From Halalkalicoccus subterraneus (GTDB lineage: Archaea > Halobacteriota > Halobacteria > Halobacteriales > Halalkalicoccaceae): 64,000 bases of DNA. The stretch lies in contig NZ_RDQG01000037.1 of the NCBI RefSeq assembly GCF_003697815.1, positions 50,480 through 114,479 of the forward strand, in the 5' to 3' direction. Both the position numbers and the translations under genes were made by a program. Below are positions 47,445-64,000 of the stretch, in pieces (position 1 is the first letter of the stretch; every line of letters starts with the position of its first letter). The notes under the pieces were generated by a model, which saw only the letters and a list, made by a program, of their open reading frames with translations, was not told the origin of the DNA and made no database searches.

Positions 47445-50400
47445 CTACGCGATCACCTGATGCTTTCTATCGCCCCGAGCTGCGTAAACGTGCTTGACCG
47501 CGCCGACGGTAAATGCAAGTGCACCGAGGATCATCGGGGTGTCCCCAAGTGTTCGGACCCAGAGCAAGGCCTGCACCCGCGGGCGCTCATAGAACTCGAG
47601 ACTCCGGGCGACAGCGTATCCTTCCGAGTAGGACGCTTTGAGCTGGGCGAAGCCGACGGGAAGCAACGAGGCGAAAGTCATGATCGCCAGCCCGATGTTC
47701 GTCAGCCAAAACGCCCCGCGGAACCACGCTGGGTCCCAGGCGTTCTCGGGCGTGACCACACGCAAGATGTACGTCCCCAACCCGAGTGCGAGCAGCCCGA
47801 ACGCGCCGAACATCGCCGCGTGGGCGTGGGCCACAGTCAGGTAGGTGCCGTGTTCGTAGTAGTTGATCACCGGCAGGTTAATGAAGAATCCCAGTACCCC
47901 GCCACCGACGAAATTCCAGACGCTGCTGGCGATAATAAACAAAAATGGAATCGTATACGGGAAGTCTTCGCCCTGTGCGCGAAGCGAGCGATACTCCCCA
48001 AGGCTCCGATACAGGACGAACACCAATGGGATGAACTCAAGCGTCGAAAACGTCGTTCCGAGGGGCACCCATACGTCGGGCAGACCGACCCACCAGTAAT
48101 GATGCGAGACGCCGACGATACCTGCACCCATGATCGTGAACACCTCGAAGAGGATTGCCTTCTCAGCATCGCCTTGGTCGACCAGCTCCATCGAGACCAG
48201 CGCAACCGAGATCACGGCGGTGACAAAGAACTCGAAGACGCCCTCGACCCACATGTGAACGACCCACCAGCGCCAGAACTCCGTGACCGCTATGTTCGTC
48301 TCGGGAGTGTACAGCATGCTCGCTCCGAACAGCAGCGCAATCGAGCCGCCAGCGTACGCCATGAAGTGTCCCAGTCCGGCCGGAGAGTCCTCGACACGGC
48401 GCACACCGCGGATCACCAACCCGGTCCAGCCGACGAAGCCCGCAAGAAGCAACAGTTTCCAGAGCCGGCCGACTTCGAGGTACTCGAGACCTTCCGAGCC
48501 GATCAGCCACCAGAGGTCGCCGTCCTCTGGCGTCCCAAGCTTGCCGTGGATACCGAGCCAGACGCCCGCAAACGCGCCGACGGTCGCAGTCACAAGCAGA
48601 CCGAGCAGCGTGGTCGTCCCTGCGGTCTGCCACGGTGGGTCGTCGTCGCTGAACAGCCCCGGGAGGAACAATCCGCCCGCGAGCCACAGTGTCGTGATCC
48701 AGAGCACTGCGAGGTTGACGTGCCACGTTCGGACGGTCGCGAAGGGCAACAGCGAGACGATGTCGATCCCCAGTGCATCAGCGATGCCGAAAAAGCCGGT
48801 GCGCTCGATGTAGTAGTGGGCTAGCAGCGCTCCGGTGAGCGTCTGAACGAGAAACAGGGCACCCGCGACGGGGACATACCACGCGGCGGCGTACTGTGTA
48901 GCCGTACTTGCCACCTTGTCCGGCGAAGGAATCTCGATCATCTCGGTCGTCGGCTCGGCGAAGTCGAAGGTATGGTACGCCCACACGCCCAGCCCACCGC
49001 TCGCGACGAGCAATACGAGGCTGATCGTACTCCAGACGAGCACCTGCCCAGTCGGGCGGTTCCCGGTCCCGGAAACGTAGGGCCAGTCGTTTGTATACGA
49101 GTGGTCCGAGCCCGGTCGATTGGTATGGGAGATCCAGGCCGTCCAGCAGGCGAAGTCGGCGATTCGGGCGGCCTGTTCTACACTTCTAACAAAGCCTTCT
49201 GGGATTCCTCGTTCGGGATCACCCTCGTGATAGCGCTCGATATATGTCTCACGGATCTGCTGATGTGCATAGGTCTCGGCTGCTGAGTACTCCGCGATTG
49301 GGCCGTCAGGGGCCTCACCGTCGAGTTCGGTTTCGACCCGGTGTTCAACGGCGGCCTGTTCATCCTCATCGAGGGCCACCAGAGAATCGGTTCCCCGCTC
49401 TCGAGCGTAGTACTCGCGCATGAAGTGGGCTTTTAGCTCTAGCGCGTCGGCAGTGAGGTCGACTCCAAAGTAGGAGCCGTTGCCCAGGATCGACCCCTGA
49501 TTCATCAGTCCGTTGGCCTGGAATGCTTTTTTCCCTGCCCGGACTTGCTCTGCCGTAAAGACGACATCGTTATCGGGACCACGGAATTCCTCGGGGATCG
49601 GGGGCGCGTGACGTTTAGAGAACCACGCTCCAAGCCCCATCGCTACGAGGTTGGCGACGAAAAGTGCAACGAGCGCCCGTGCGCCAGTCGTCTCTGAACC
49701 GAGAATTTCGCGTATTTCGTCTTCGTCAAGCCCATCAAGGAGCTTCGAGAGCGCGCCGAGGGCGACCTGTTCGCCAGTGTACTGGCCACCACCCCCGATG
49801 TTCTCGGCGGCGAACACGGACAGCAGGCCCGCAAGCGCCCCGCCGAGGTCCGACACACCCCCACTGTCGGCAAGCAGGGTCGCCGCGAGTGCCGCCGCTC
49901 CGGCCTCAGTTGCGTGGATGGAACGTCCTTCGTTTCCATCTACGGTCACGTCCTCGAAACGCTCCGAGGCGTCGCCGAGGGCCCGCTCAATCTGGTGACC
50001 GAATTCGATCGCGTCCCGTTCGAGTAACTCGGAGAAAGCGTCGCCGTCTCGGTCGCCAGCCGTGATGGCCGCTAGATCAAGCTCCGAGAGATCTACATCC
50101 GAGAGAGTCCCGGCGAGCGTCGATTCCGACGGTCGTGCGTCGGCGGCCACGCGCTCGCGGATCGCCTCAACGGTCCGATCGTCCAAGCGAGTCTCATCAA
50201 GATTGTACTGGTGTAGGAACGCCTCGAACGCGCGATCGGTCGCTTCATCAACGACCGACATCCCCTCGTACTCCTTAAGGAGGGATTCGATACGGCGCTC
50301 GATCGCACTGGAAGGATCATGTGCCGTCCGGCGAACCCACGTCGGGACGGCATCAACAACGCCTGGTTTGAGCCGCTCTACTACGTACGCTTTCGCGTGG

Positions 50401-50468
50401 CGCCTCTCCGACGCGGGTTGGTCACGATCGGGGAGGACGGCGTTCTGAAGGAAGTTCGTGATGGCCAT
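47445..50468 (-). CDS. norB: Quinol-type nitric oxide reductase with long N-terminal extension
   Basis: 1007 aa. From about residue 265 on it is a qNor: AWFSKRHAPPIPEEF, the NGLMNQGSILGNGSYFG cytochrome c-like segment, then a 12-14-helix haem-copper oxidase core with haem/FeB histidines (ARTWHVNLAVLW, TVAHAHAAMFG, GVSHHYWWVG). Catalyses 2 NO to N2O with electrons from quinol, at the cell membrane. The first ~265 residues are an added acidic, helical region without recognised motif, containing a hydrophobic stretch at 190-205; usual qNor is ~760 aa. Haem-copper assignment is sure; role of the extension is unknown. Confidence 0.93.
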   Translation of the reverse strand: MAITNFLQNAVLPDRDQPASERRHAKAYVVERLKPGVVDAVPTWVRRTAHDPSSAIERRIESLLKEYEGMSVVDEATDRAFEAFLHQYNLDETRLDDRTVEAIRERVAADARPSESTLAGTLSDVDLSELDLAAITAGDRDGDAFSELLERDAIEFGHQIERALGDASERFEDVTVDGNEGRSIHATEAGAAALAATLLADSGGVSDLGGALAGLLSVFAAENIGGGGQYTGEQVALGALSKLLDGLDEDEIREILGSETTGARALVALFVANLVAMGLGAWFSKRHAPPIPEEFRGPDNDVVFTAEQVRAGKKAFQANGLMNQGSILGNGSYFGVDLTADALELKAHFMREYYARERGTDSLVALDEDEQAAVEHRVETELDGEAPDGPIAEYSAAETYAHQQIRETYIERYHEGDPERGIPEGFVRSVEQAARIADFACWTAWISHTNRPGSDHSYTNDWPYVSGTGNRPTGQVLVWSTISLVLLVASGGLGVWAYHTFDFAEPTTEMIEIPSPDKVASTATQYAAAWYVPVAGALFLVQTLTGALLAHYYIERTGFFGIADALGIDIVSLLPFATVRTWHVNLAVLWITTLWLAGGLFLPGLFSDDDPPWQTAGTTTLLGLLVTATVGAFAGVWLGIHGKLGTPEDGDLWWLIGSEGLEYLEVGRLWKLLLLAGFVGWTGLVIRGVRRVEDSPAGLGHFMAYAGGSIALLFGASMLYTPETNIAVTEFWRWWVVHMWVEGVFEFFVTAVISVALVSMELVDQGDAEKAILFEVFTIMGAGIVGVSHHYWWVGLPDVWVPLGTTFSTLEFIPLVFVLYRSLGEYRSLRAQGEDFPYTIPFLFIIASSVWNFVGGGVLGFFINLPVINYYEHGTYLTVAHAHAAMFGAFGLLALGLGTYILRVVTPENAWDPAWFRGAFWLTNIGLAIMTFASLLPVGFAQLKASYSEGYAVARSLEFYERPRVQALLWVRTLGDTPMILGALAFTVGAVKHVYAARGDRKHQVIA

Positions 50469-51046: not shown

Positions 51047-51379
51047 TTACTCAACGTACTCTCGCAACTGAGCAACTGCCTGCTCAACGATCTCGTCGGT
51101 GAGCCTCCCTTGCCAATCGGTGATCCACTCCGTCTTCACTGAATTCACCGACCACGGCATTATCGAACTCGATTTGGGAGCACCTCCTTCTTGCCAGTGC
51201 TCATCCATGAGTACAATTCGTTCGTCATGCCACGTTCGCGTCGTCAGTGAAAGAGTGATATACTGTTCACCGTGAAACGGTGTCTCTGCTCGATTGATAA
51301 GCAGAAACGGGCGGCCGGTTGTGCTCTCATCTTTGAACGGGTCCGCTGCGAGCACAACATCTCCACGTTCCATGCTCAT
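51047..51379 (-). CDS. MazF/PemK-like toxin
   Basis: 110 aa. RGDVVLAADPFKDESTTGRPFLLIN at the N-terminus and ITLSLTTRTWHDERIVL follow the MazF/PemK fold (RGDIVxxxxP...KxRPxLVI..., then xLxT). Likely a ribosome-independent endoribonuclease. Overlaps the upstream antitoxin gene by 4 bases, as usual for type II pairs. Confidence 0.8.
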   Translation of the reverse strand: MSMERGDVVLAADPFKDESTTGRPFLLINRAETPFHGEQYITLSLTTRTWHDERIVLMDEHWQEGGAPKSSSIMPWSVNSVKTEWITDWQGRLTDEIVEQAVAQLREYVE

Positions 51380-51726
51380 TCGGATGAGTCTTCAGCAGCG
51401 TGTTCACGCCATTCGTCGAGATCCTCTGCACCGAACCGCTCATCCAGATCCGTTATCGTACGATGAAATCGAAACGCCTCATGGACCCGTTGCTCATCAC
51501 CAATTGCCCAGTAGTCTCCCTTGTGCTGAACCAGCTCCCGATCCTGTAGCCGACGGAGAACAGTCCCGATCGAACTCTTCTTGATACTGGCCCCTTCTGC
51601 AATCTCGGAGGGAGTGAAAGCCTTGTCGTTGTTCCGATAGAGGAATCGAACGACCTTTTCAGCGTTCGTTACCTCGGTCAGTTCCTCACTGCTTCCGTCA
51701 GTGAACGTTTCAATATCGATTGGCAT
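51376..51726 (-). CDS. Winged-helix (MarR-like) antitoxin
   Basis: 116 aa from ATG 51726; a TATA-like CTTATGAC on the minus strand (about 51753-51759) gives a near-leaderless start, and upstream Met at 51759 would sit within it. Winged helix about 25-80: VVRFLYRNNDKAFTPSEIAEGA, SSIGTVLRRLQDRELVQHKG. An acidic C-terminus (HEAFRFHRTITDLDERFGAED) may block the toxin. Archaeal MazF partners of this type differ from bacterial MazE/AbrB. Confidence 0.78.
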   Translation of the reverse strand: MPIDIETFTDGSSEELTEVTNAEKVVRFLYRNNDKAFTPSEIAEGASIKKSSIGTVLRRLQDRELVQHKGDYWAIGDEQRVHEAFRFHRTITDLDERFGAEDLDEWREHAAEDSSE

Positions 51727-51912
51727 GTTTGTCAGTAGTGTCTCTAGTGTCATAAGCACTTGCTCGTCATTACGTCATTAGTGTCACTACTGCAGCAGAG
51801 ACCCGAAATATCTCGTCGGTGAACTTGTGGGGTGACGTTGCTTTGCTACCGACGATACTCTAAGAAGAGCTCGTCTACCGTGTACTATTTCTAAAGTAAA
51901 CTAAATTCATCC

Positions 51913-52055: not shown

Positions 52056-53303
52056 ATGAGAAGTGAGGCGTACATCTCGTCACTGGATCGACGACAATTC
52101 CTCAAGCGGACGGCAGCGACAGCAGCCGGTACGACACTCGCCAGTAGCGCAGGCTGTCTCCAACTGCTTGGCTTGAGTGGCTCGCCAACCGGTCTCAATG
52201 GTGGTCCTACGTTTCAAGACGTTCAACGGGAGGATGCTGACATCGTCGCCGAGTCCGCCAGCACTCTCGAAGCTGAAATCAATCGTGGTGGAGGACGCAT
52301 TATCTGGATCCCATCCGATACAGCGATCGATCTGAGCGGCCGGAACCTCACGCTCCGCCATGTGACGATCGCTTCGGGCCGCTCGGACGATGGCTCGGGA
52401 GCGCTCCTCGCAACGTCGGATCGCGGTCGTGGCTCACCAACGATGAGCAACGCCCTCTTCACACTCGAGGAAGGGGGTCGCCTCACCGGCGTAACGATCC
52501 GTGGCCCACATTGGAACTACACTGCCTCACCAGTCATTCCCGGGTATATTCCATTCGCACCAGGTGAGACACGCCCTGAACGCGCCCGGTGGCGCAGTGA
52601 CTGGTACGCGCGCGGTGTGTCGATGCAAGCCGACAGTAGCCAGTTCGATAACTGCGAGCTCTGGGGTTTTTCGACCGGCATCATGGTCGGCAGCCGGGAG
52701 TCACCAGCCTCACCGTCGATTCTCTACTCCGCGCTGCATAATTGCATGATGACCTCCGCCGGGTATCCGATTGACGTCAATCGGGGCACGCCGACGATCT
52801 ACCGGTGTGCCTTTGACGCCTATCGCCACGCGATCTGCGGATATGGCACCGCTGACGCGGGCTATCTCGCGATCGAATGCGATTTCGGTCCTCACGCATC
52901 GAGCCATCCAATCGATATGCACCGGATCGGCGAGAACGAGAGTGGCGCGAACGATGAATCCGCGCTGCGGTGGCAATGGCGGGCGGGAGGAACGATGCTC
53001 GTCCGCAACTCGATCATCCGGCCGACGCGAGTCGTCGACCAACGCCATCACAACGGTGCGAACGCTGGACCGTACGAGCCCGACCCGTATATCAACCATA
53101 ACCGTGGCGGCTTCACACCGCACGTCCTGATTCGGGGTGCACCGGCCGACGGGATCTATCTCGAGGGCAACCAGTGTGCCCACCCCGATCCAGAGACTGG
53201 GATCGACCAATCATCGTTCCCGGGTCGCCAGCGCATGAACGAGTTCGGCTGGCACAACATCTTTACCCAACAGAATCAGTGGGACGTCCCGTTCAGTCAG
53301 TAA
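52056..53303 (+). CDS. Tat-exported lipoprotein with right-handed beta-helix
   Basis: 415 aa. Twin-arginine signal SSLDRRQFLKRTAATAAGTTL with lipobox ASSAGC (Cys ~34). The mature part has repeated short strands (LRHVTIASG, LTGVTIRGPHW, FDNCELWGFSTGIMVG, IYRCAFDAYRHAI, LVRNSIIRP, IYLEGNQC), the pattern of pectate-lyase-like parallel beta-helices. Probably a surface carbohydrate-binding or lyase protein. Its stop overlaps a convergent lipoprotein gene by 11 bases. Substrate unknown. Confidence 0.85.
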   Translation: MRSEAYISSLDRRQFLKRTAATAAGTTLASSAGCLQLLGLSGSPTGLNGGPTFQDVQREDADIVAESASTLEAEINRGGGRIIWIPSDTAIDLSGRNLTLRHVTIASGRSDDGSGALLATSDRGRGSPTMSNALFTLEEGGRLTGVTIRGPHWNYTASPVIPGYIPFAPGETRPERARWRSDWYARGVSMQADSSQFDNCELWGFSTGIMVGSRESPASPSILYSALHNCMMTSAGYPIDVNRGTPTIYRCAFDAYRHAICGYGTADAGYLAIECDFGPHASSHPIDMHRIGENESGANDESALRWQWRAGGTMLVRNSIIRPTRVVDQRHHNGANAGPYEPDPYINHNRGGFTPHVLIRGAPADGIYLEGNQCAHPDPETGIDQSSFPGRQRMNEFGWHNIFTQQNQWDVPFSQ

Positions 53304-53910
53304 CGTCGTAGACCGTTCGATTCACTTCGATTCGCTCGAGAGTCCCCTCTATTGTTCCGGTAGTCGGTTGGATTTCGAACTCGTGATTCTCACCAGGCTC
53401 GAGATCACGGACGGTCACGAGCGTGGCACTGAGATACGCGTCGTTCGTCCCGTAGAAGATCACCTCGATATCGACGACGTTGATCGCTCGGTCGCTGACG
53501 TTCGTCGCTGTACCAGTCACGAGCAGCGAGCTATCAGTCGTTTGTTGGGCATCGGCCGTTATCTCGACGTCACTCGGATCGCGAGTAGTGGTTTCGTACT
53601 CCCCGTAGGTCTCGTTGTACTCGTCACGGTTGATCTGGGTAGCGTTCTCGTCAGGATGCTGCTGGCGCTTCGTGCTGTCTTTACTAGTTGTCTCGCTCGC
53701 GTTTTTTCGCTCAGTACCGCGCTCACTCGTATTGTCAGTATCAGCAGGTCCTTCAGAAGTCGTGTTCTCCTGTGACCTATTATCAGTACCACCGGTAGGA
53801 CGTTCTTCGTCATCATCATCTTCCCACCAGCGGGTTCCGATACACCCGGAGAGGGAGACTAGCGTCCCGATACTCCCGAGAACTTTCGCGAATTGCCGTC
53901 GTAAGATCAT
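53293..53910 (-). CDS. Lipoprotein with FxLYD-like domain
   Basis: 205 aa. RRQFAKVLGSIGTLVSLSGC is a signal with lipobox, then a ~65-residue Asp/Thr/Glu-rich linker, then an Ig-like domain (VEITADAQQTTDSSLLVTGTATNVSDRAI...VEVIFYGTNDAYLSATLVTVRDLEPGE) typical of FxLYD proteins. Anchored outside the cell. Role unknown. Confidence 0.8.
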   Translation of the reverse strand: MILRRQFAKVLGSIGTLVSLSGCIGTRWWEDDDDEERPTGGTDNRSQENTTSEGPADTDNTSERGTERKNASETTSKDSTKRQQHPDENATQINRDEYNETYGEYETTTRDPSDVEITADAQQTTDSSLLVTGTATNVSDRAINVVDIEVIFYGTNDAYLSATLVTVRDLEPGENHEFEIQPTTGTIEGTLERIEVNRTVYDVTD

Positions 53911-53961: not shown

Positions 53962-54204
53962 TTAGTCAATCCCGACGCCGATTCCTAAGAGGAGAAACAG
54001 CCAGTAGAACACGAACAGTCCGAAATTGCGAATACTGAATCGAGGTAGCTCATCACCCACGCCCACGAACAGGACCCCGCCAGCAGTGGCCAAAAACAGA
54101 GCTGCAAGGACTCCCCACTGACCGACAAGGAAGATAGCAAGGACGACTGTTCCAAGCCCGATTACTTTCGCGGCACCAGCGTTCGTTGAACTCAGAAATC
54201 CCAT
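53962..54204 (-). CDS. Small membrane protein, 80 aa
   Basis: Two to three hydrophobic segments (KVIGLGTVVLAIFLVGQWGVLAALFLATAGGVLFVGVG, and FGLFVFYWLFLLLGIGVGI). No motif. Convergent or tandem with lipoprotein gene; could be a conjugation-region accessory. Confidence 0.6.
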   Translation of the reverse strand: MGFLSSTNAGAAKVIGLGTVVLAIFLVGQWGVLAALFLATAGGVLFVGVGDELPRFSIRNFGLFVFYWLFLLLGIGVGID

Positions 54205-54653: not shown

Positions 54654-55181
54654 GTGGACGAGGACGAACAGCGAATCCTAACCAGAGTATTCCCACACGA
54701 ACCACACAAACTTCAAAATTCCATGTCATCGACAGGCGATACCCCTCCCGAAGACGAGCCGACAGACGACCAACCACCTCTACACCCACTCATCGCACGC
54801 GTGATGAACGTGTTCCAGGGCCCGACACGGGTTCCAACAGCGTACCTTGCGGCAGGAACCGCCATTGGCCTCCTGGTAGTTATCGCGAGCACACCCGCTG
54901 CAGCCCAGGAGTTCTGCGATGATCCCGCCGGACAGTTGTTGATCTCGATCGAGACGATGCTAATCAACTACGGGACGATGCTGTTGTTCCTCGCTTTCCT
55001 GATCGGCGTTGCCATGTGGGCGCTGACACCCATCTTTGCCGGGCAGAGTGCGATCGGACTGGGAATGATCCTGCTCTCGTTCGGGGCAGCAATCGCCTTC
55101 GTCGTCGGCACCCAGTTCTTTGGGATGACCTTCGAGATCGCCGGCGCCGGTGGTCAGAGCTGCTCAACCGTCCTCAACTAA
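54654..55181 (+). CDS. VirB2-like pilin/small membrane protein of the transfer operon
   Basis: 175 aa from GTG 54654; ATG 54723 gives 152 aa. Has a helix near 67-85 ending ASTPAAAQEFC, a signal-peptidase-like AAA site, then two membrane helices (about 97-120 and 125-150) joined by a short loop, and two Cys in the mature part. Signal plus two helices is the layout of VirB2/TrbC pilins, placed as usual before VirB6 and VirB4. Sequence similarity alone would not settle it. Confidence 0.65.
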   Translation: MDEDEQRILTRVFPHEPHKLQNSMSSTGDTPPEDEPTDDQPPLHPLIARVMNVFQGPTRVPTAYLAAGTAIGLLVVIASTPAAAQEFCDDPAGQLLISIETMLINYGTMLLFLAFLIGVAMWALTPIFAGQSAIGLGMILLSFGAAIAFVVGTQFFGMTFEIAGAGGQSCSTVLN

Positions 55182-55227
55182 CCACAGACTCTCGACCCTC
55201 GTGATTCGCTACCCGGACTAATCGCCT

Positions 55228-56826
55228 ATGGATACGCCACTGAACCCGCGTCGACTCGTCGTGATTATCCTCATCATAGGTCTTGCCATGACCTCGATAG
55301 CTGGTCCTGTCGCTGCTGCTTCAGAGACGACTGCTACGCTCGATATTGACGGAATCGTTCTTCAGACCGACGCAGGTGATCTCACCGACGACAACGAGAG
55401 TGACGGTACCACCTCAAACGAGGATGATGACGAGTCGAATGTAACAGCAGAGGATCTGGAAGAGCTCCCGATCGACGTCGACGAAGACGAGGTCAACCTC
55501 GAGGAGATCAACAACGAATCTGCGGACAACGCGACCAACACTACCAACGGAACTAACGCCGAAAACGGGGGCGGCACACCACAAATCGGCGGCGGTGGTG
55601 GAACCGGCAGTATCGGTCCGAGCCTGTCGCCCGAAGAGAACGCCAAGGATCTCGCCGAGTGGCTCCGAGGGCAACTTCGCGGGGCGACCGTCTACCTCGT
55701 CGACGAGGTGATTAACGACATGCTGGGGACGCCTACGCCCGAGAATGACGGGTGGCACGGCATCCTCGGCCAGCCTGTTGGCGAGACGTACAGCGATCTC
55801 TACGAAGAGGTCTATATGCAGATGATCCTGCCACCGGCGTTCCAGTTCATGATCATCGGGTTCATCTTCTTCACCCTGTTTGTCGTGCCGTTTTCGCCGA
55901 TGACTGGCCAGCGCGTCTGGTCGGTATTGCTCGCGATGTTCGGCGCCGGAGCGTTGGTGATGCTCAGCTGGAACGTCGCGTCGTTGCTCCATCACGTCTC
56001 GGATGCCGTGACGATGTGGTTCCTCCCCCAGGGTGAGGAGATCCTCGCGAGTGGCGACCCGAACAATCCCTTCTCCGAGGAGAATATCAAGCTGAATGCT
56101 GGGCCACTAGCAGTCGGTCTCGGAGTCTACCTCGCGAGTTGGAATGTCGGGTTGATGTTGGCACTGATTCACGGGATCCGCCACGCAGTGTTATTTCTCA
56201 TGCCGACGATACTACCGATCATCCTCGTCGGGATGTACTTTGGGCCCCGAACGTCGAAAGCAGCGTTCTCGGTGCTGTTCTGGCAGTATATCGGCCTACT
56301 GGTGATGAACTGGCCGACGGCACTCCTGCTCTCGATCGGCTATCACGTCGGCTTTGACTTCGGCATGGGCGCTGCAGGATCGCTCGCGAATATGGCGGTG
56401 ACGATCGGCGTGATCATCCTCGCGGTCGTCCTGCCGCTGACGATCCAGACGTCGTTCCTTGGGGGATCGTTGGTCGCGATCATCACGAAAGGGTCAGTGC
56501 TGTCAACGGGCATGAACACGGCCCGACGAGTCCTACCGTCGCGCGGGGATACCTCTCGATTGAAACGGGGTGGAGGCTACATCAATCCCGTCTCCCGGTT
56601 CACTCGCGATCGATCCACCAACAGCAATCGTCAGCGCCGACAGGACGTTGCAGCGACTGACGGCGGTTCGTCGACCCAATCACGACTGACGAACTACTCC
56701 CAGTCTCACTCCCGATCAACCCCCTCTCGACAATCGGGTCCTTCTCGTAGTCAGCAAGACGCCGGCAGTATCGACGCCCGACGGCGGGAACGCTACCGTC
56801 GCCTTCGCCGAAATAGGTCTGATTGA
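55228..56826 (+). CDS. VirB6/TrbL-like polytopic membrane protein
   Basis: 532 aa. Signal peptide (about 8-32), a ~90-residue very acidic outside segment rich in Asp/Asn/Thr and ending in a GGGGG-like stretch, then about six membrane helices (200-430) and a basic Ser/Arg tail in the cytoplasm. This is the design of VirB6/TrbL inner-membrane channel proteins. Followed by VirB4 with a 4-base overlap. Acidic ectodomain suits high salt. Confidence 0.75.
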   Translation: MDTPLNPRRLVVIILIIGLAMTSIAGPVAAASETTATLDIDGIVLQTDAGDLTDDNESDGTTSNEDDDESNVTAEDLEELPIDVDEDEVNLEEINNESADNATNTTNGTNAENGGGTPQIGGGGGTGSIGPSLSPEENAKDLAEWLRGQLRGATVYLVDEVINDMLGTPTPENDGWHGILGQPVGETYSDLYEEVYMQMILPPAFQFMIIGFIFFTLFVVPFSPMTGQRVWSVLLAMFGAGALVMLSWNVASLLHHVSDAVTMWFLPQGEEILASGDPNNPFSEENIKLNAGPLAVGLGVYLASWNVGLMLALIHGIRHAVLFLMPTILPIILVGMYFGPRTSKAAFSVLFWQYIGLLVMNWPTALLLSIGYHVGFDFGMGAAGSLANMAVTIGVIILAVVLPLTIQTSFLGGSLVAIITKGSVLSTGMNTARRVLPSRGDTSRLKRGGGYINPVSRFTRDRSTNSNRQRRQDVAATDGGSSTQSRLTNYSQSHSRSTPSRQSGPSRSQQDAGSIDARRRERYRRLRRNRSD

Positions 56827-59800
56827 CAATGAGCACAGGAACTGACCAGCAGCGAGCAGCGGACAGACGCAAAGTTCTCCCAAACCGATTGACCGGCCAG
56901 CGAATCGCCGGCGTCTCGAAAGTCGCGATTTACGCTGGCGGTGGCACAGCCGCGATGACGTGGTTCGCCGCGGATATGTATGTTCCACCGGGCTACCGAA
57001 GTCCGGTCTACGGGCTTGCACTCTGCATGTTCGTTGGCTCAATCATCGCCTCGTTTCACACGCCGAATCACCTCTCGGTTCACGAACACCTGCGGCGACG
57101 CATTACCCATCATACTCGACAACATACCATGCTCAGTGCACGCAACGGCAGCAAGAAAGCACAGCCCACCAACGACACGCTTCCCGGTCGGATCGTTCGA
57201 CTCCCAATCATCCGAAATGTCCGTGGAATCGGTGTCGACGAGGCAGAACGCTCGCAGGACGCCGTGCAGGTCTCCCGCCCGTTCCACAATTCGTCGGCCA
57301 TCGAAACGGCTGATGGCGGTGTGATCGGCGCGATCAAGGTTCGCCCGGCGGCGATGGCGGTCGCCGACGAAGGCCACTGGACACGCCGTGTGGAGCGCCT
57401 CGCGAACGTCATCGACTCATCAGTCACCGCGAGGACGCAGTTCACCTCGAAGATGCGAGCCGTCGATTACGGCGACCGGATGGGTACGTACGACAATCGC
57501 GAGCAAGAGCTCCTTGACAAGCTTGCCGCGAAACACGGCGATATTGATACAGCCTACCGGAAGGCTCGCAATAGTGAGATCAATCGAGAGGATCTCGGTC
57601 TCTTAATTGGGGCTGACCTCGCTGATGAGCGCCAGAGCGTGATTGATCTATACGACGTCACCACGCTCAAGCGCAACTACTACGTCACGATCAAGATCGA
57701 ACCAGCGGACGTCGTCACGGAGGACAATGTTGAGGCGGGCGGCGGGATGGCGAACGTCCCGCTATTGGGCCGCCTCTGGAAGTACAAGGAACTCCGTGAT
57801 CTCCGCCAGGAGGGCGACCACACGCAAGTAATGGTCGAACGGCTTGAGAACAAACTCGAGACGCTTGAGTCGGACCTCCGGACGATTGAGGACATCAGTA
57901 CGCGAATCCTCTCCTCAACCGAGCTTTCGCAGGTCTTCGCCGATCACTATCAGGCGGCTAACGCGTACGTGAACGACAACTTTGGCGACGTCGTCCGGCT
58001 CTCACCGAAGCCGACCTCCAGTGAGGGAACGGCGATGTACGGTGTCGACCACGATCATCTACGCGACCTTCCCAATGGCCCGATCGGCGAGTCCAACGGC
58101 GCTGTCGAACCTCAAACGCCCGGCGAGACATCCCAAATGGTCGATCAGGGGGACGACGGCAATCGCCATATAGTCCCCACTCGCAGTGACCAATCCAACG
58201 AGCCCAATGACGAGGGCATCGTCAATACGGCGAAGAGCACTGCGAGCTCCTTTGCTGATCGAGTCGCGAAGATCAACGATAACCCCGTTGCCGACGTCAT
58301 TCTCACGAAAGAGCAGCTGGTCGACCACTATCAGACGGTTGTCGGCCCCAAAGACGGCATTTACCGCGGCAACGAGAATTGGATTACGATCGACAACGCC
58401 GTCTACAGCAAGACACTCTCGATCCGCGAATGGCCCGCCGTCCCCAAGATGGGCATCCTCGAGCCGATTCTTCGAGAACATGAACCCGGCGTCGCGGTCA
58501 ACGTCGCGACCCACATCAATCCGATTGACCAGCAGCGTGCCGAAATCGAACTCTCAGACACGGAAGACCAACTGAAGGACAAAAAGGAGAAGGCCGAGGA
58601 CTCCCGGCTGCCGATGTTCCTGCAGACCTACCGGAAACAGCACGACGAGGCCCAGGAGATGGTCGAGGCGAACCAGGATTCGGAATACGACCTCTTCGAA
58701 ACGAACACGCATATCGAACTCCGAAGCGACGACCCCGAAGCCCTCGGTCGGACCATCGATCACATCAACTCGATGATGAACGACGAGGGCGCCGAAGCCC
58801 GTCAAGAAACAGCCCACCACTTCGAGGGGTGGCAGTCAGTCGCGCCCGTGTGTGATGATAAGCTCGAGGAGCCGATCATGATGTTCGCCGACGGTGTGGC
58901 CCGTGAGTTCCCCTGGACGTCGCGAAATCTCCATGAACCGAACGGCGTCGAGTTCGGGATCAATATGCACACGAACGAGCCGCTGTACTTGGACCTCTGG
59001 AACCGCAAGACTGGCTTCGACTTTGGGATCTTCACGAAGAAAGGCGGCGGCAAGACGACGACTGCCACGGAGATCCTCGGCCGGCTAAACATGGTCTATC
59101 GCGATGATCTCATGACGATCATTATCGACCCACTGCAGGAGTATGCGAACCTCGCGACTGTCCACGACGGCGAGCGTCTTGTCGTCGGTGGGGATACGGG
59201 CATCAACCCGTTCCATATCGAGGCGACACCTGAAGAGAAGCTCGCGACCATCGGCAAGGGCGCACCGTACAAGCACTGGCTGGAGGGCTGTATGGACTTT
59301 GTCGAGATGTACTACGCCGACGAGGGTCTGGACTTCGCCGAGAAGAAGGGGATCTGGCGTATGGCGATTCGAGAAGCCGCCGAGCGCTATGGGATCGAAG
59401 ACGATCCGCAGACCCACTCAGCAGACTATCGTCGGGAACAGGGCTATTCGGGTGACTGCCCGACGCCAATGGACGCGATCGAGATCATCGACGAGATGAC
59501 CGACGAGCCTGAGGAGTGGGTTCGCTCGAAGCCCGGGCAGGATCCCTCCGAACGAAAAGTTGAGGAACGAGAGGTCACGGCCGTCGACATCATCAACAAC
59601 GATATCCAACCGTTCCTCCCCGGCGGCGAGTACGAGCACTTCACGAAACAGACTGATATCGAGCTTGAGGATTCGACGTTCTTCTACGTCGATATGCAGC
59701 AACAAGAGGCCAGTACATCGATTGGTCTGACGATGCAGGTCGTCTACGACCTCTTCTACGAGATGGTCAAAACAATCGACATTCCGTCGGTGATCTTCAT

Positions 59801-60410
59801 GGACGAGTTCCACTATATGCTGCGGGACTCGCTGGCCCAGAAATCGCTCAATCAGAAGTTCCGTCATGGTCGCCACTGGGACCTCTCACTCGGCGTCGCC
59901 ACGCAGTCGTTCAAGGATTTCTTTGGCGAGGACGCTGACGGTAACACCCACCTCACGGACAACGCCCAAGTCCTGTTCGAGAACATGCCCACACAAATCT
60001 TCCACCAGGAGGATATGAGCGACGAGTGGGCCGAGGAGATCGGGCTCACATCAGACGAAGCCAGATTCATTCGAAATGCGGAGCCGGGTAATCGTGAATT
60101 GGGTTACTCAACGGCCCTACTCCGGGTTTCGGACAAAGGTACCTACCCGTTGAAAGTCAAGATGGACTTCGAGGAGAATCCCCGCGAAGCTGTCGTGACG
60201 GAGTTCGATCCCTCGGAACATGGCGAGGATTTCTACTCGTATCTCCTCGAGCACGACGACATCTGTGAATGGCGCTTCGCCCCGACGACAGACGGCAAGG
60301 TCGCCACCAACACGGAGATCACAGCAACGGGCACGAACACGTCTGGAGACGCTGTCGAGCAGAACCAGAGGCCACAGCGTACCGACGTTAGTGCTACGGG
60401 GGACGACTGA
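56823..60410 (+). CDS. virB4: VirB4-family conjugation ATPase
   Basis: 1195 aa, longer than bacterial VirB4 (~800). Two N-terminal membrane helices (about 25-45 and 50-75) anchor it. Walker A KKGGGKTTT near 739-747, IIIDPLQEYANL just after (VirB4 D-loop), Walker B SVIFMDEFHYML near 988-999, and QSFKDFF sensor Gln near 1020. Coiled segments near 320-360 and 575-620. Powers pilus assembly and DNA transfer at the membrane. A Ser/Thr-rich tail ends the protein. Stop is followed at once by the next ATG. Confidence 0.92.
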   Translation: MTMSTGTDQQRAADRRKVLPNRLTGQRIAGVSKVAIYAGGGTAAMTWFAADMYVPPGYRSPVYGLALCMFVGSIIASFHTPNHLSVHEHLRRRITHHTRQHTMLSARNGSKKAQPTNDTLPGRIVRLPIIRNVRGIGVDEAERSQDAVQVSRPFHNSSAIETADGGVIGAIKVRPAAMAVADEGHWTRRVERLANVIDSSVTARTQFTSKMRAVDYGDRMGTYDNREQELLDKLAAKHGDIDTAYRKARNSEINREDLGLLIGADLADERQSVIDLYDVTTLKRNYYVTIKIEPADVVTEDNVEAGGGMANVPLLGRLWKYKELRDLRQEGDHTQVMVERLENKLETLESDLRTIEDISTRILSSTELSQVFADHYQAANAYVNDNFGDVVRLSPKPTSSEGTAMYGVDHDHLRDLPNGPIGESNGAVEPQTPGETSQMVDQGDDGNRHIVPTRSDQSNEPNDEGIVNTAKSTASSFADRVAKINDNPVADVILTKEQLVDHYQTVVGPKDGIYRGNENWITIDNAVYSKTLSIREWPAVPKMGILEPILREHEPGVAVNVATHINPIDQQRAEIELSDTEDQLKDKKEKAEDSRLPMFLQTYRKQHDEAQEMVEANQDSEYDLFETNTHIELRSDDPEALGRTIDHINSMMNDEGAEARQETAHHFEGWQSVAPVCDDKLEEPIMMFADGVAREFPWTSRNLHEPNGVEFGINMHTNEPLYLDLWNRKTGFDFGIFTKKGGGKTTTATEILGRLNMVYRDDLMTIIIDPLQEYANLATVHDGERLVVGGDTGINPFHIEATPEEKLATIGKGAPYKHWLEGCMDFVEMYYADEGLDFAEKKGIWRMAIREAAERYGIEDDPQTHSADYRREQGYSGDCPTPMDAIEIIDEMTDEPEEWVRSKPGQDPSERKVEEREVTAVDIINNDIQPFLPGGEYEHFTKQTDIELEDSTFFYVDMQQQEASTSIGLTMQVVYDLFYEMVKTIDIPSVIFMDEFHYMLRDSLAQKSLNQKFRHGRHWDLSLGVATQSFKDFFGEDADGNTHLTDNAQVLFENMPTQIFHQEDMSDEWAEEIGLTSDEARFIRNAEPGNRELGYSTALLRVSDKGTYPLKVKMDFEENPREAVVTEFDPSEHGEDFYSYLLEHDDICEWRFAPTTDGKVATNTEITATGTNTSGDAVEQNQRPQRTDVSATGDD

Positions 60411-61787
60411 ATGGGTCGAATCGCCTCGGCACTGATCCGCGACGATGTCCGTCGGTCGGTCGCCCGGAAAGTCCCGGCCCTTCGCGACGGCGGCTCGGAT
60501 GCCTACGACACGCTGCAGCTGACCAATGACGTAATCAACGAACTCGAAGAGGCCCGTGCCGAACGTCGCGCAGTCCACGTCCTTCCACACAAAGAGGGTG
60601 GTGGGATTCCGAAGGCGGTCGACCTGCTAACGTCGGTTCACCCGATGCGGACTGGGACCAGTACTGACTCGCGCCCAGCCCACGCTTTCGAGATCCGCAA
60701 CATCAACGAGCAGATCGGCTTCCAATGGGTGATGGGCGGCGAGAAATACCAGAACCGGCTGGCCCGGCAGCTCGAAACGTTCTACCCCGACAGCCACATC
60801 GAAGTCGACGAACTACCCGAGCCCGAGCTTCTCCCATTCCGCGAGGACTGGCATCTGGCCGCCGCTCGCCTCGAGCTAAAACTCCAAGGCAAGAAGGAAC
60901 GCTACTATCCGATCAAGCACATCGACGTCGAGGGCTTCGAGAACGATCCCTACGGCTCGATCACCAGCGAAATGGTCGGCGAGCGTGAAGCCGAGACAGT
61001 CACGAACGTCGCGACACAGGTGGTCTTCCGCCCAGCACCCAGCGACTGGTACAAGGGTGGTGTCCTAGAGCCCTCGATTCACGACGTCGCCGACGACTTA
61101 GAGGAGAACGTCCAGCCGGCCGATACGAAGGACATCGTTCGGGGAATGTTCACAAAAGAGGGGGTGGATCTTTCAGAGGTTCGCACCCAAAAGCGCGGGA
61201 CAAACAAGAAGACCACAGCGGCTGCTGACGCCGTCCGCCGCCAAGCCGGACAGAAGGGCTATGAGGTCGACATTCGGATCGTCGCGGTCGGTCAGGACCC
61301 AGAGACGGCGATCAGCCGCGTCGACGAGACGGCCGATATGTTTGAGGGGTACTACGATTCGGACACCCAGCAGGGGTTCGATTGTGTCCCGATGAGCGGC
61401 GAGGATCTCTTGAAGCTCGTCCAACTCGCGATGCGCCGCGAATACGTCGATCATGGCATGACGATGGGGGTTCGAACCGCGGCAGGCGTGGTTCACGTCC
61501 CGAACGAGTCGATCAATACCCAGAACGTCAGTTGGACTCGCACATCGAATGCTGGGGACGTCCCAGCGGACTCCCCGCGCTTTAGCGAGTGGCTGAGCCC
61601 AGCACTTGGCTGGGATACACCGGATCGATCGGTGAAACGGGATCCCGATAAGTGGATCTACGCCATCAATCAGTCCCAACCAACAGAAGCAGCGATTGCA
61701 GCAGTAACTGAGCAGGACCAAGAAACGCAGGCGACCGGTGAACAGCCCGACCAGACGCAATCAGACAGTACGGAGGCAGTATACTAA
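60411..61787 (+). CDS. Transfer protein resembling the N-terminal region of TraG/VirD4-type proteins
   Basis: 458 aa. The AHAFEIRNINEQIGFQWVMG segment followed by RQLETFYPDSHIEVDE (about 85-130) and the VVHVPNESINTQNVSW stretch (about 363-378) recall the pre-ATPase half of large archaeal/bacterial conjugative ATPases, here split from the ATPase at 62053. No P-loop. The tail from ~385 (SPRFSEWLSPALGWDTPDRS...DPDKWIYAINQ) is repeated in the next gene. It begins one base after the VirB4 stop. Probably an adaptor for substrate DNA or relaxase; inference. Confidence 0.7.
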   Translation: MGRIASALIRDDVRRSVARKVPALRDGGSDAYDTLQLTNDVINELEEARAERRAVHVLPHKEGGGIPKAVDLLTSVHPMRTGTSTDSRPAHAFEIRNINEQIGFQWVMGGEKYQNRLARQLETFYPDSHIEVDELPEPELLPFREDWHLAAARLELKLQGKKERYYPIKHIDVEGFENDPYGSITSEMVGEREAETVTNVATQVVFRPAPSDWYKGGVLEPSIHDVADDLEENVQPADTKDIVRGMFTKEGVDLSEVRTQKRGTNKKTTAAADAVRRQAGQKGYEVDIRIVAVGQDPETAISRVDETADMFEGYYDSDTQQGFDCVPMSGEDLLKLVQLAMRREYVDHGMTMGVRTAAGVVHVPNESINTQNVSWTRTSNAGDVPADSPRFSEWLSPALGWDTPDRSVKRDPDKWIYAINQSQPTEAAIAAVTEQDQETQATGEQPDQTQSDSTEAVY

Positions 61788-62053
61788 TGACACACTCTAA
61801 TGCATCCACCGACGACGAATCGGACGCAGAAATCGACTCCCCTCGTTTCGACGACTGGGTACAACCCGCGACCAACTGGGAGGCGTCGGATCGATCAGCG
61901 ACAACAGATCCAGAAGAGTGGGTGTATGCGATCGATCAACTCCCACCGGATATCGAAGAACCCACGGCAGGCACAGTACGCGAACAGCACCAGCAGTCAG
62001 CCGAGCAACCGAATGGAAATGACCACTCGGATTCGACGGAGGGAGACAACTAA
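61787..62053 (+). CDS. Small protein duplicating the tail of the upstream transfer protein
   Basis: 88 aa. SPRFDDWVQPATNWEASDRS then DPEEWVYAIDQLPP matches SPRFSEWLSPALGWDTPDRS then DPDKWIYAINQSQP at the end of the 458-aa protein. It overlaps both neighbours by one base (TAATG). The rest is disordered and acidic. It may compete with or bridge to the same partner. Confidence 0.65.
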   Translation: MTHSNASTDDESDAEIDSPRFDDWVQPATNWEASDRSATTDPEEWVYAIDQLPPDIEEPTAGTVREQHQQSAEQPNGNDHSDSTEGDN

Positions 62054-64000
62054 TGGGACTATTCAATTCATTCACCAGCGACGACGAAAACGAGACTGAA
62101 GCGGACGACAACAACGAGACGACCCAAGTAGCGAGTGATGGAGAGTACGACCCGACTCGACCAAAACGGATCAACGGCAAAGAGTGGTGGATCGAACGCA
62201 TCGACGAGGTCTCCAACGAGGTCGAAACCTACGCCGGCGAATGGCCCCGAGCGATGATCGAAAACGCCGCTAAAAAGCCCTACCAGCCAGTTTGGGTGGG
62301 CTGTTCCGAACGGACGGGCCGAGAGTTCGGTGTCGAATTCTCTCGGGCGTTCCGCCATATTGCCTACCTCGGTAGTACAGGAACCGGCAAGACAACGGCG
62401 ATCTACAACTCTGTAACCCAACTCATGATGGGCGGTCATGGCGTCGCGATCGTTGATCCAAAGGGTGACGACATCTACGACCTCTTGCGTCGAGTTCCGA
62501 AACGGCGTTGGGACGACGTCGTCTACGTCGACCTCGGCGCTGACTACTATTCGCTCGAAGATGAAGAGACGGGCGAGGACGTCCCATATCAGATCGGGTT
62601 CAATATTCTGGACACGTACCACGATCCCGGTGAGCCTGGCTTCGACGAGGAAATCGAGTGGATCGTCGCCGACCTGATCGAACTGCTCGCTGCCGGCGAG
62701 TACTGGGGGCCACGCATGGACCGGATCGCGAAAAACATGATCCGCGGAATGGCCCGCCACGAGGAAGAGTTCACCATCATCGAGATCTACTATGCCTTGC
62801 TTGAAGAGGAAAACCGCCAGCAGTACGCGGATCTGATCGGCGATTCGATTGACGACGATGACATCATGTTCCTCGAGGGATTCACCCGACGAATCGCCGA
62901 GGAATTGAGCGACGACGAACTGGACCCGTTGCTCGGGCGGCTGAAAGACTGGGTCGAGAACCCGATCACCCGGAAAATCATCGCGATGCGCGGCGCCGAG
63001 GTCACGCTAGGCCAGATCGTCAACGAGCAGAAGATCCTGATTGTCAACAACGACCTCCCAAAGGAAGCGAAGATCATGACTGCTAATGCGGTTGTGAGCG
63101 GCATCTGGACCGCCGTCACCTCTCGGAAAGACCCGTCCGAACAGCAGATGATGGAACTCGCTGGAATGGACAATGTCGGTAGTGAGTATGCGCCCTTTTT
63201 CCTCGCGATCGACGAGTGTCACTCGGTCCTCACCGATGGTGACGAGATCGAGACGATGCTCATGGAAGCCCGCTCAAAGAAACTCGGGTTGATGCTTTCG
63301 ACGCAGGTCCTCAGGTCACTCCCGGACGACGCGGCGGATGCAATTATCTCCAATTGCAACACGATTCTCTCGCTCACACCAAATCATCCCGAAGAGGCGC
63401 GTGAGATCGCAAACCGATTCGGTGGAATGGATACTGAGGATTTGCAGCGAACACCCGATTACCATGCACAGACGCAACTCAACAGTGAGGATGATCCGTT
63501 CCTAGCGAAGCTCATCCCACCGTATCCACCATGCCATACCATCGAAGAAGCATACGAGCTAATCGTCACTTCGCTTGAGAACTACGGCTCGCCAGTCCAA
63601 AGTGGCGAGGAGATTCTCGACGAAATGCACTTCGATGCCGGTGGGGCGATTTCGTCCAAGACGACTGAAGCAGGTGCCAGTAACGACGGCGAGGAACAGA
63701 TCGATGTGACGAGCGACCCCGCCGAGCAAGCGCTCTATGAAGCGGCTTACACAGTCCAGATTAAGCGAGATGCGATCGGTGAATACGTCGAGAGCGAGGC
63801 AGTGAAAGACGAGTGGCGACGCCGAGCCGGTGAGCTCGGCTTCTCATCGGAAGTGTCGAACGTAATTGAGCAAGCACCTGATGAGTATCTCCAACGCCAA
63901 CGTCGGGATGGTGATTCGGTGATGAAGGTGACACCAGAGGGCCTCGAATATGCAGGACTAGCCCAAGACACCGGCAGCAGTGCAAGCGGTGGCGGCGACG
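62053..64000 (+). CDS. virD4: VirD4/TraG-type coupling ATPase (continues beyond window)
   Basis: At least 649 aa; the end is outside. Walker A GSTGTGKT at 107-114, VAIVDPKGDDIYDLL near 133 (T4CP motif), Walker B FFLAIDECHSVL with D387-E388, and a TQVLRSLPD sensor region near 417. After ~510 a Ser/Glu linker and a winged-helix-like segment (RRRAGELGFSSEVSNVIEQ) follow. Couples processed DNA to the transfer channel. ATG overlaps the previous stop by one base. No N-terminal membrane helix is visible, which is unusual for VirD4 and fits the split from the 458-aa partner. Confidence 0.9.
   Translation, partial: MGLFNSFTSDDENETEADDNNETTQVASDGEYDPTRPKRINGKEWWIERIDEVSNEVETYAGEWPRAMIENAAKKPYQPVWVGCSERTGREFGVEFSRAFRHIAYLGSTGTGKTTAIYNSVTQLMMGGHGVAIVDPKGDDIYDLLRRVPKRRWDDVVYVDLGADYYSLEDEETGEDVPYQIGFNILDTYHDPGEPGFDEEIEWIVADLIELLAAGEYWGPRMDRIAKNMIRGMARHEEEFTIIEIYYALLEEENRQQYADLIGDSIDDDDIMFLEGFTRRIAEELSDDELDPLLGRLKDWVENPITRKIIAMRGAEVTLGQIVNEQKILIVNNDLPKEAKIMTANAVVSGIWTAVTSRKDPSEQQMMELAGMDNVGSEYAPFFLAIDECHSVLTDGDEIETMLMEARSKKLGLMLSTQVLRSLPDDAADAIISNCNTILSLTPNHPEEAREIANRFGGMDTEDLQRTPDYHAQTQLNSEDDPFLAKLIPPYPPCHTIEEAYELIVTSLENYGSPVQSGEEILDEMHFDAGGAISSKTTEAGASNDGEEQIDVTSDPAEQALYEAAYTVQIKRDAIGEYVESEAVKDEWRRRAGELGFSSEVSNVIEQAPDEYLQRQRRDGDSVMKVTPEGLEYAGLAQDTGSSASGGGD

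Follow-up and report, generated by a model that had tools for sequence, protein, structure and literature searches.

A gene cluster at the 3′ end of a 64,000-nucleotide stretch of Halalkalicoccus subterraneus DNA (hereafter the window) probably encodes a conjugative type IV secretion system (T4SS) with a two-part coupling protein, composed of a VirB4-like docking half and a motor that carries a predicted MOBC-like nuclease at its C-terminus. This built-in nuclease, predicted from sequence comparison and structure modelling, is for us the most interesting result. Archaeal relaxases are very few in surveys, and the existence of unknown ones has been suggested (Guglielmini 2011, PMC3158045; PMC12857230). 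The candidate relaxase domain reported here shows invariant H/D/ExE residues and occurs in 45% of the sampled Halobacteriales genomes. A bolder version, which we offer only tentatively, is that a relaxase-type nuclease inside the VirD4 C-terminus would be the missing archaeal relaxase, in a protein where a VirB4-like docking half, fused in one lineage and separately encoded in others, would have taken the place of the membrane anchor. In the open-access literature we found a prior description neither of the VirB4-like front half nor of the C-terminal nuclease.

An earlier note on this DNA had proposed an archaeal type IV secretion operon, and this assignment stands: six plus-strand ORFs of the pilin, VirB6, VirB4, 458-aa, 88-aa and VirD4 types can be read at positions 54654-64000 of the window, with family matches for the VirB4 and VirD4 products. 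The first gene (54654..55181, +) encodes a VirB2-like pilin precursor of 175 aa with three hydrophobic segments; its homologues have a later start and a length of about 152 aa, and a PAAAQ-type site and two cysteines are invariant throughout the family. It is followed by the gene of a 532-aa VirB6-like polytopic membrane protein with six hydrophobic segments (55228..56826, +). Neither of these two proteins matches a profile itself, and both were assigned through aligned relatives, two of which match PF04956 (TrbC/VIRB2; best E 1.8e-4) and one PF18895 in the case of the pilin, and two PF19590 (TrbL_3/VirB6; 7.8e-14) in the case of VirB6. The third gene (56823..60410, +) encodes a VirB4-type ATPase of 1195 aa, which matches NF045975 (E 2.7e-33) and TIGR00929 (2.1e-15), both below the curated equivalog cut-offs, and has an N-terminal hydrophobic segment at about residues 60-78. 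In its Walker A motif, TKKGGGKT, the first Gly is replaced by Thr, and the canonical motif is absent from VirB4 in all six close Halalkalicoccus copies. Then come the 458-aa protein (60411..61787, +), assigned through fusions and AF2/Foldseek as the front half of the coupling protein, an 88-aa protein (61787..62053, +) and residues 1-649 of a VirD4/TraG-type coupling ATPase motor (62053..64000, +). The motor is recognised by TraG-D_C (PF12696, E 1.7e-8) and TrwB_AAD_bind (PF10412, E 2.1e-8), both over the cut-off. Its gene extends beyond the window, to a full length of 1026 aa (L002:2533-5613), and the contig ends 6.3 kb 3′ of the window.

Read directly, the junctions are tight from VirB6 onwards: there is a 4-base overlap between VirB6 and VirB4, the 458-aa gene starts right after VirB4, and the 458/88 and 88/VirD4 junctions each overlap by 1 base within TAATG. 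The claim that all six genes overlap or abut thus holds for VirB6 through VirD4, but not for the pilin and VirB6 genes, which lie 46 bases apart. The same genome carries three near-identical operons (C37, C78 and C99), with 91-92% identity in the 458-aa protein, and a truncated VirD4 without Walker A on C16. The presence of these copies, together with a gene order conserved in the majority of some 50 haloarchaeal loci, indicates that the gene set is not a chance assembly. The closest named homologues of the 458-aa protein are found in H. jeotgali B3 plasmid 2 (88.9%) and Halalkalicoccus paucihalophilus (87%). As for the 88-aa gene, it is, judging by its sequence, a lineage-specific tandem copy of the tail of the 458-aa protein: its residues 8-85 resemble residues 378-455 of the latter (43% identity, E 2.6e-16), and it occurs in four of the six close Halalkalicoccus operons, being absent from L019 and L028.

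There is good support for a split coupling protein with the 458-aa protein as its front half. The loci, about 50 from haloarchaea, were mapped with iterated profiles after retrieval, and their commonest gene order is pilin, VirB6, VirB4, the 458-aa family (N458) and VirD4. The N458 family is present in 76 of 295 Halobacteriales genomes, and 51 plasmid records carry such a module. In 19 of 47 loci, N458 and the VirD4 motor form a single ORF, with the N458 domain first, and the remaining 28 loci have neighbouring genes for the two. A fused relative is also carried by pHGLR3 of Haloferax gibbonsii LR2-5. These natural fusions bear out the proposal that the 458-aa protein is half of a coupling protein; its likeness to the front part of TraG-type ATPases holds in the form of such haloarchaeal fusions, but not at the sequence level, where no Pfam or PDB match was obtained. 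On a tree of both domains, which was a quick build with some long branches, the split or fused state changes just twice, giving one fused clade of 16 and a separate one of 3 with an inter-domain insert, with the remainder split; splitting is therefore old and stable rather than a result of gene decay. VirB4 is also divided, into N-terminal part and motor, in five loci (L065, L071, L072, L025 and L026).

Two further groups of coupling proteins were seen. Giant ORFs, from 2407 to >3100 aa, combine the front half, the VirD4 motor and the nuclease-like region with long extra sequence, and no VirB4 was found near them (L062:8525-15748, L063:1-9245 and L069:1-9379). A third clade (L178-L182) consists of nuclease-bearing coupling proteins of 1144-1541 aa encoded beside VirB4, in which no TM segment was found; their front half is unlike N458 and is missed by the N458 profile, VirB4 is mostly in two or more ORFs, and VirB6 was seen in three of the five loci.

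The coupling ATPase had been described as lacking a membrane anchor of its own in its visible part, and this holds for the full 1026 aa. For this reason the same note had suggested that the 458-aa protein may be its missing half, and thus might supply the anchor. The idea of such an anchor draws on the position of the 458-aa gene directly upstream of the motor genes and on the fusions that make it a front half, but we consider it very improbable. In a simple Kyte-Doolittle scan (19-residue window, threshold 1.7), the highest means were 0.73 (458-aa protein) and 0.98 (VirD4), and the threshold was reached by no N458- or VirD4-bearing ORF in any locus. Segments of at least 1.7 occur only in the pilin, in VirB6 and at the N-terminus of VirB4. 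On this family-wide hydropathy we reject the 458-aa protein as a membrane anchor.

Models suggest instead that the front half is a VirB4-N-terminal-domain-like module without membrane segment. The AF2 model of the 458-aa protein, built with 46 homologues, has a pLDDT of 74.2 and a well predicted core, with a VirB4-NTD-like domain at about residues 30-395 and a flexible tail at 377-458 (disordered in AF2 from 399). Foldseek against the PDB placed R388 TrwK/VirB4 structures at ranks 1-5 (best E 3.9e-5, prob 1.00), so that the fold check proposed for this protein gave a VirB4-NTD-like model. For a natural fusion of 1193 aa (L066; pLDDT 84.9), the model could be aligned with TrwK/VirB4 along some 900 columns (E 8.3e-15), with HerA and TrwB ranking next. 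With low global TM-scores, a pTM of 0.51 and a global rmsd of about 10 Å to VirB4, this match supports only the fold class and the domain layout. The Foldseek match list gives no residue ranges, and it is the lack of a P-loop, together with the end-to-end match of the fusion, that equates the 458-aa protein with the N-terminal part of VirB4. No link was detected between N458 and the N-terminus of the operon's own VirB4 (hhalign, P 0.26), and sequence searches of N458 in Pfam, NCBIfam, PHROGs and the PDB gave no useful match. PHROG 5156, whose function is not known, covers the N-domain and the motor of a fused protein. Separately, gp27.4 of Bacillus phage SPO1 (H42, H43) shows a weak similarity to the fused coupling protein (E 5e-4, 20% identity), which spans the front half and the motor, the same layout as PHROG 5156.

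The resulting architecture can be set against several known systems. R388 TrwK/VirB4 (PDB 7o41-7o43, 8rtb, 8rtd), the best structural match also of the 458-aa front half alone, has in common with the haloarchaeal protein an N-terminal domain followed by a RecA motor, along the aligned columns mentioned above. However, the haloarchaeal motor is VirD4/TraG-type in sequence, its front half is a separate gene without sequence match, and a winged helix and a nuclease are added at the C-terminus. TrwB/TraG coupling proteins resemble the haloarchaeal motor in their TrwB_AAD_bind and TraG-D_C profiles and in the TrwB fold (TMt about 0.6), but the haloarchaeal one lacks the N-terminal transmembrane domain and has a VirB4-NTD-like front half in its place. 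Coupling proteins (T4CPs) without transmembrane domain are a recognised class, in which TraJ of pIP501 pairs with TraI (PMC7431656). This pair is similar to the haloarchaeal one in joining a coupling protein of that class to a second protein, although TraI is a T4SS membrane protein (PMC7431656) and the haloarchaeal partner has no TM segment. The VirB4-like front half points to a way in which a coupling protein that is itself soluble could be brought to the membrane-bound machinery. Among archaea, VirB4 and TraG/VirD4 genes are present in haloarchaeal Fsx1 elements (PMC9259645), and the Thermococcus plasmid pT33-3 is a case of archaeal conjugation with VirB4/VirD4 in which no relaxase has been identified (PMC12857230).

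Past the window, VirD4 continues with the remainder of a winged-helix region and then a PD-(D/E)XK-like domain, which matches nothing in Pfam or NCBIfam. The domain, preceded by the winged helix, follows the pattern H, PD, insert, IEAE and KPxQTLxNL, and in 39 sequences (35% mean column identity) the residues G77, H81, D111, E126, E128 and P135 are invariant; the counterparts of the invariant H, D and two E in the VirD4 of the window are H651, D681, E725 and E727. In the AF2 model of L066, residues 932-1037 run as helix, strand, D-bearing strand, two insert helices, ExE strand, helix and strand, a predicted alpha-beta-beta-(aa)-beta-alpha-beta core whose order we take to be that of the PD-(D/E)XK fold. 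Searched with a profile of the domain, 245 Halobacteriales genomes gave matches in 110, and the ORFs concerned are, with few exceptions, 900-1600 aa long. The earlier note had advised looking downstream for a relaxase: no relaxase family recurs beside the operon across the compared loci, and the candidate is this MOBC-like domain within VirD4 itself.

MOBC is a relaxase family related to restriction endonucleases, one of whose members, TraX, bears an N-terminal winged helix (PMC12857230). Ten bacterial MOBC proteins, a set that leaves out the Vibrio and Paenibacillus larvae plasmids, were aligned and show H114, P147, D148, E161, E163 and K167 as invariant. Compared with them by hhalign, the haloarchaeal domain scored 27.5-35.3; all 150 column-shuffled decoys scored lower (mean about 12, maximum 21.1), and the two other PD-(D/E)XK families taken as specificity controls stayed near the decoy level (archaeal Hjc, z 0.9 to 2.5; NucS, z -0.8 to 0.6). 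Like the MOBC proteins CloDF13 MobC and pAD1 TraX, the haloarchaeal domain has a winged helix and then a PD-(D/E)XK domain, with the H, PD and ExE in register. Unlike them, it is fused to the motor, lacks the conserved catalytic Lys that follows the ExE, as K167 is not conserved among the 39 haloarchaeal sequences, and is not detected by PF13814, which gave no match over its cut-off in the window's own genome or among the domain members. A PF13814 match in that genome is at chance level and contains stops. The pairwise P values are modest (5e-4 to 6e-3; probability 6-32%), and for this reason, along with the unshared Lys and the lack of a PF13814 match, we call the domain MOBC-like and not a MOBC member. 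The mobC gene of bacterial plasmids directly adjoins the T4CP gene, while the haloarchaeal domain lies within the coupling protein, so a fusion of both genes would be a short step. Sequence and model together make it plausible that the C-terminal domain of VirD4, in its resemblance to MOBC relaxases, is a built-in relaxase.

It is also possible, at somewhat less than even chances, that the T4SS and its two-part coupling protein are real and that the C-terminal nuclease, instead of being a relaxase, makes double-strand cuts or trims ends in the service of a dsDNA pump. The missing MOBC Lys, the HerA match of the motor in the structure search and the lack of a known relaxase in archaeal conjugative plasmids (PMC12857230) would suit such an activity, as would the Thermus precedent, where TdtA transjugation requires a restriction enzyme as well as the nuclease NurA, and dsDNA pumping has been proposed (PMC5365140). 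Like the haloarchaeal protein, Thermus TdtA/NurA and, by its description, Thermococcus pT33-3 rely on FtsK/HerA/VirD4-type motors to transfer DNA, and no relaxase is known for either (PMC5365140, PMC12857230), but TdtA works with separate nuclease genes. MOBC was the best profile match among the families tested, above Hjc and NucS, and the order of winged helix and nuclease is that of TraX-type relaxases, both of which argue for the relaxase reading.

Alternatively, the system could be a conventional one, supplied with DNA by separate relaxase cassettes located elsewhere in the genome, and the C-terminal domain of VirD4 would then have another role. There are indeed three genes of the relaxase family PF03432 in the window's genome, and H. 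jeotgali plasmid 2 holds a MOBP relaxase as well as the same T4SS type. However, a PF03432 match was found in only 6 of 41 T4SS-bearing genomes, which led us to dismiss these relaxases as a universal partner, and the cassette that we examined has its own coupling protein, which makes this explanation unlikely. The mobilization-like cassette in question, on C15 (L107:755-3203), encodes a NikA-like RHH protein, a small MOBP-type HUH relaxase of 172 aa (PF03432, 36.6 bits) and a 439-aa T4CP resembling TrwB; the further PF03432 matches of the genome are on C20 and C55.

Under the preferred reading, the machine would consist of the pilin, the VirB6-like channel protein, the VirB4 ATPase and the two-part coupling protein. 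From what was observed or computed (gene order, the fusion/split pairing, the lack of TM segments, the predicted folds and the invariant H/D/ExE), we infer that the front half probably attaches the ring of the VirD4-type motor, which is soluble, to the membrane complex of VirB4 and VirB6, with this protein contact as a substitute for the TrwB transmembrane domain. The winged helix would bind the plasmid DNA and the restriction-endonuclease-type domain would nick or cut it, after which the motor would pump the DNA through the channel and into a presumed transfer. Some copies of the operon are on chromosome-sized contigs (L026, L074, L085 and L088), as could be expected if it served DNA uptake or exchange between cells, in the way of Ced/Ted, which import DNA (PMC9905601), or protein delivery, and not plasmid conjugation. 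This role seems improbable to us, since the module is carried by those 51 plasmid records, and since Ced is composed of CedA, CedA1, CedA2 and CedB (PMC11868833), a list without a coupling protein, whereas the present loci have one.

Several neighbouring genes accompany the operon. A small membrane protein of 80 aa (53962..54204, -) is conserved upstream of this type of T4SS in 10 loci, a lipoprotein-like protein of 205 aa (53293..53910, -), with an FxLYD domain in H. jeotgali, is conserved with the operon, and a Tat-signal secreted protein of 415 aa (52056..53303, +) is associated with it in 9 loci. A winged-helix/coiled-coil protein occurs in 25 loci, mostly downstream and on the opposite strand. 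One T4SS clade (L086:1122-2900 and relatives) has two conserved proteins encoded upstream, a secreted one of 587 aa, which has no Pfam match, and a 289-aa lipoprotein. Farther from the operon, the window encodes a NorB-type nitric oxide reductase (47445-50468, -), with COX1 and NorB cytochrome c-like domains and about 290 extra N-terminal residues without Pfam match. Finally, a PemK/MazF-like gene (51047-51759, -; weak match, 3.2e-4) overlaps a MarR-like regulator gene, and both could possibly form a toxin-antitoxin pair.
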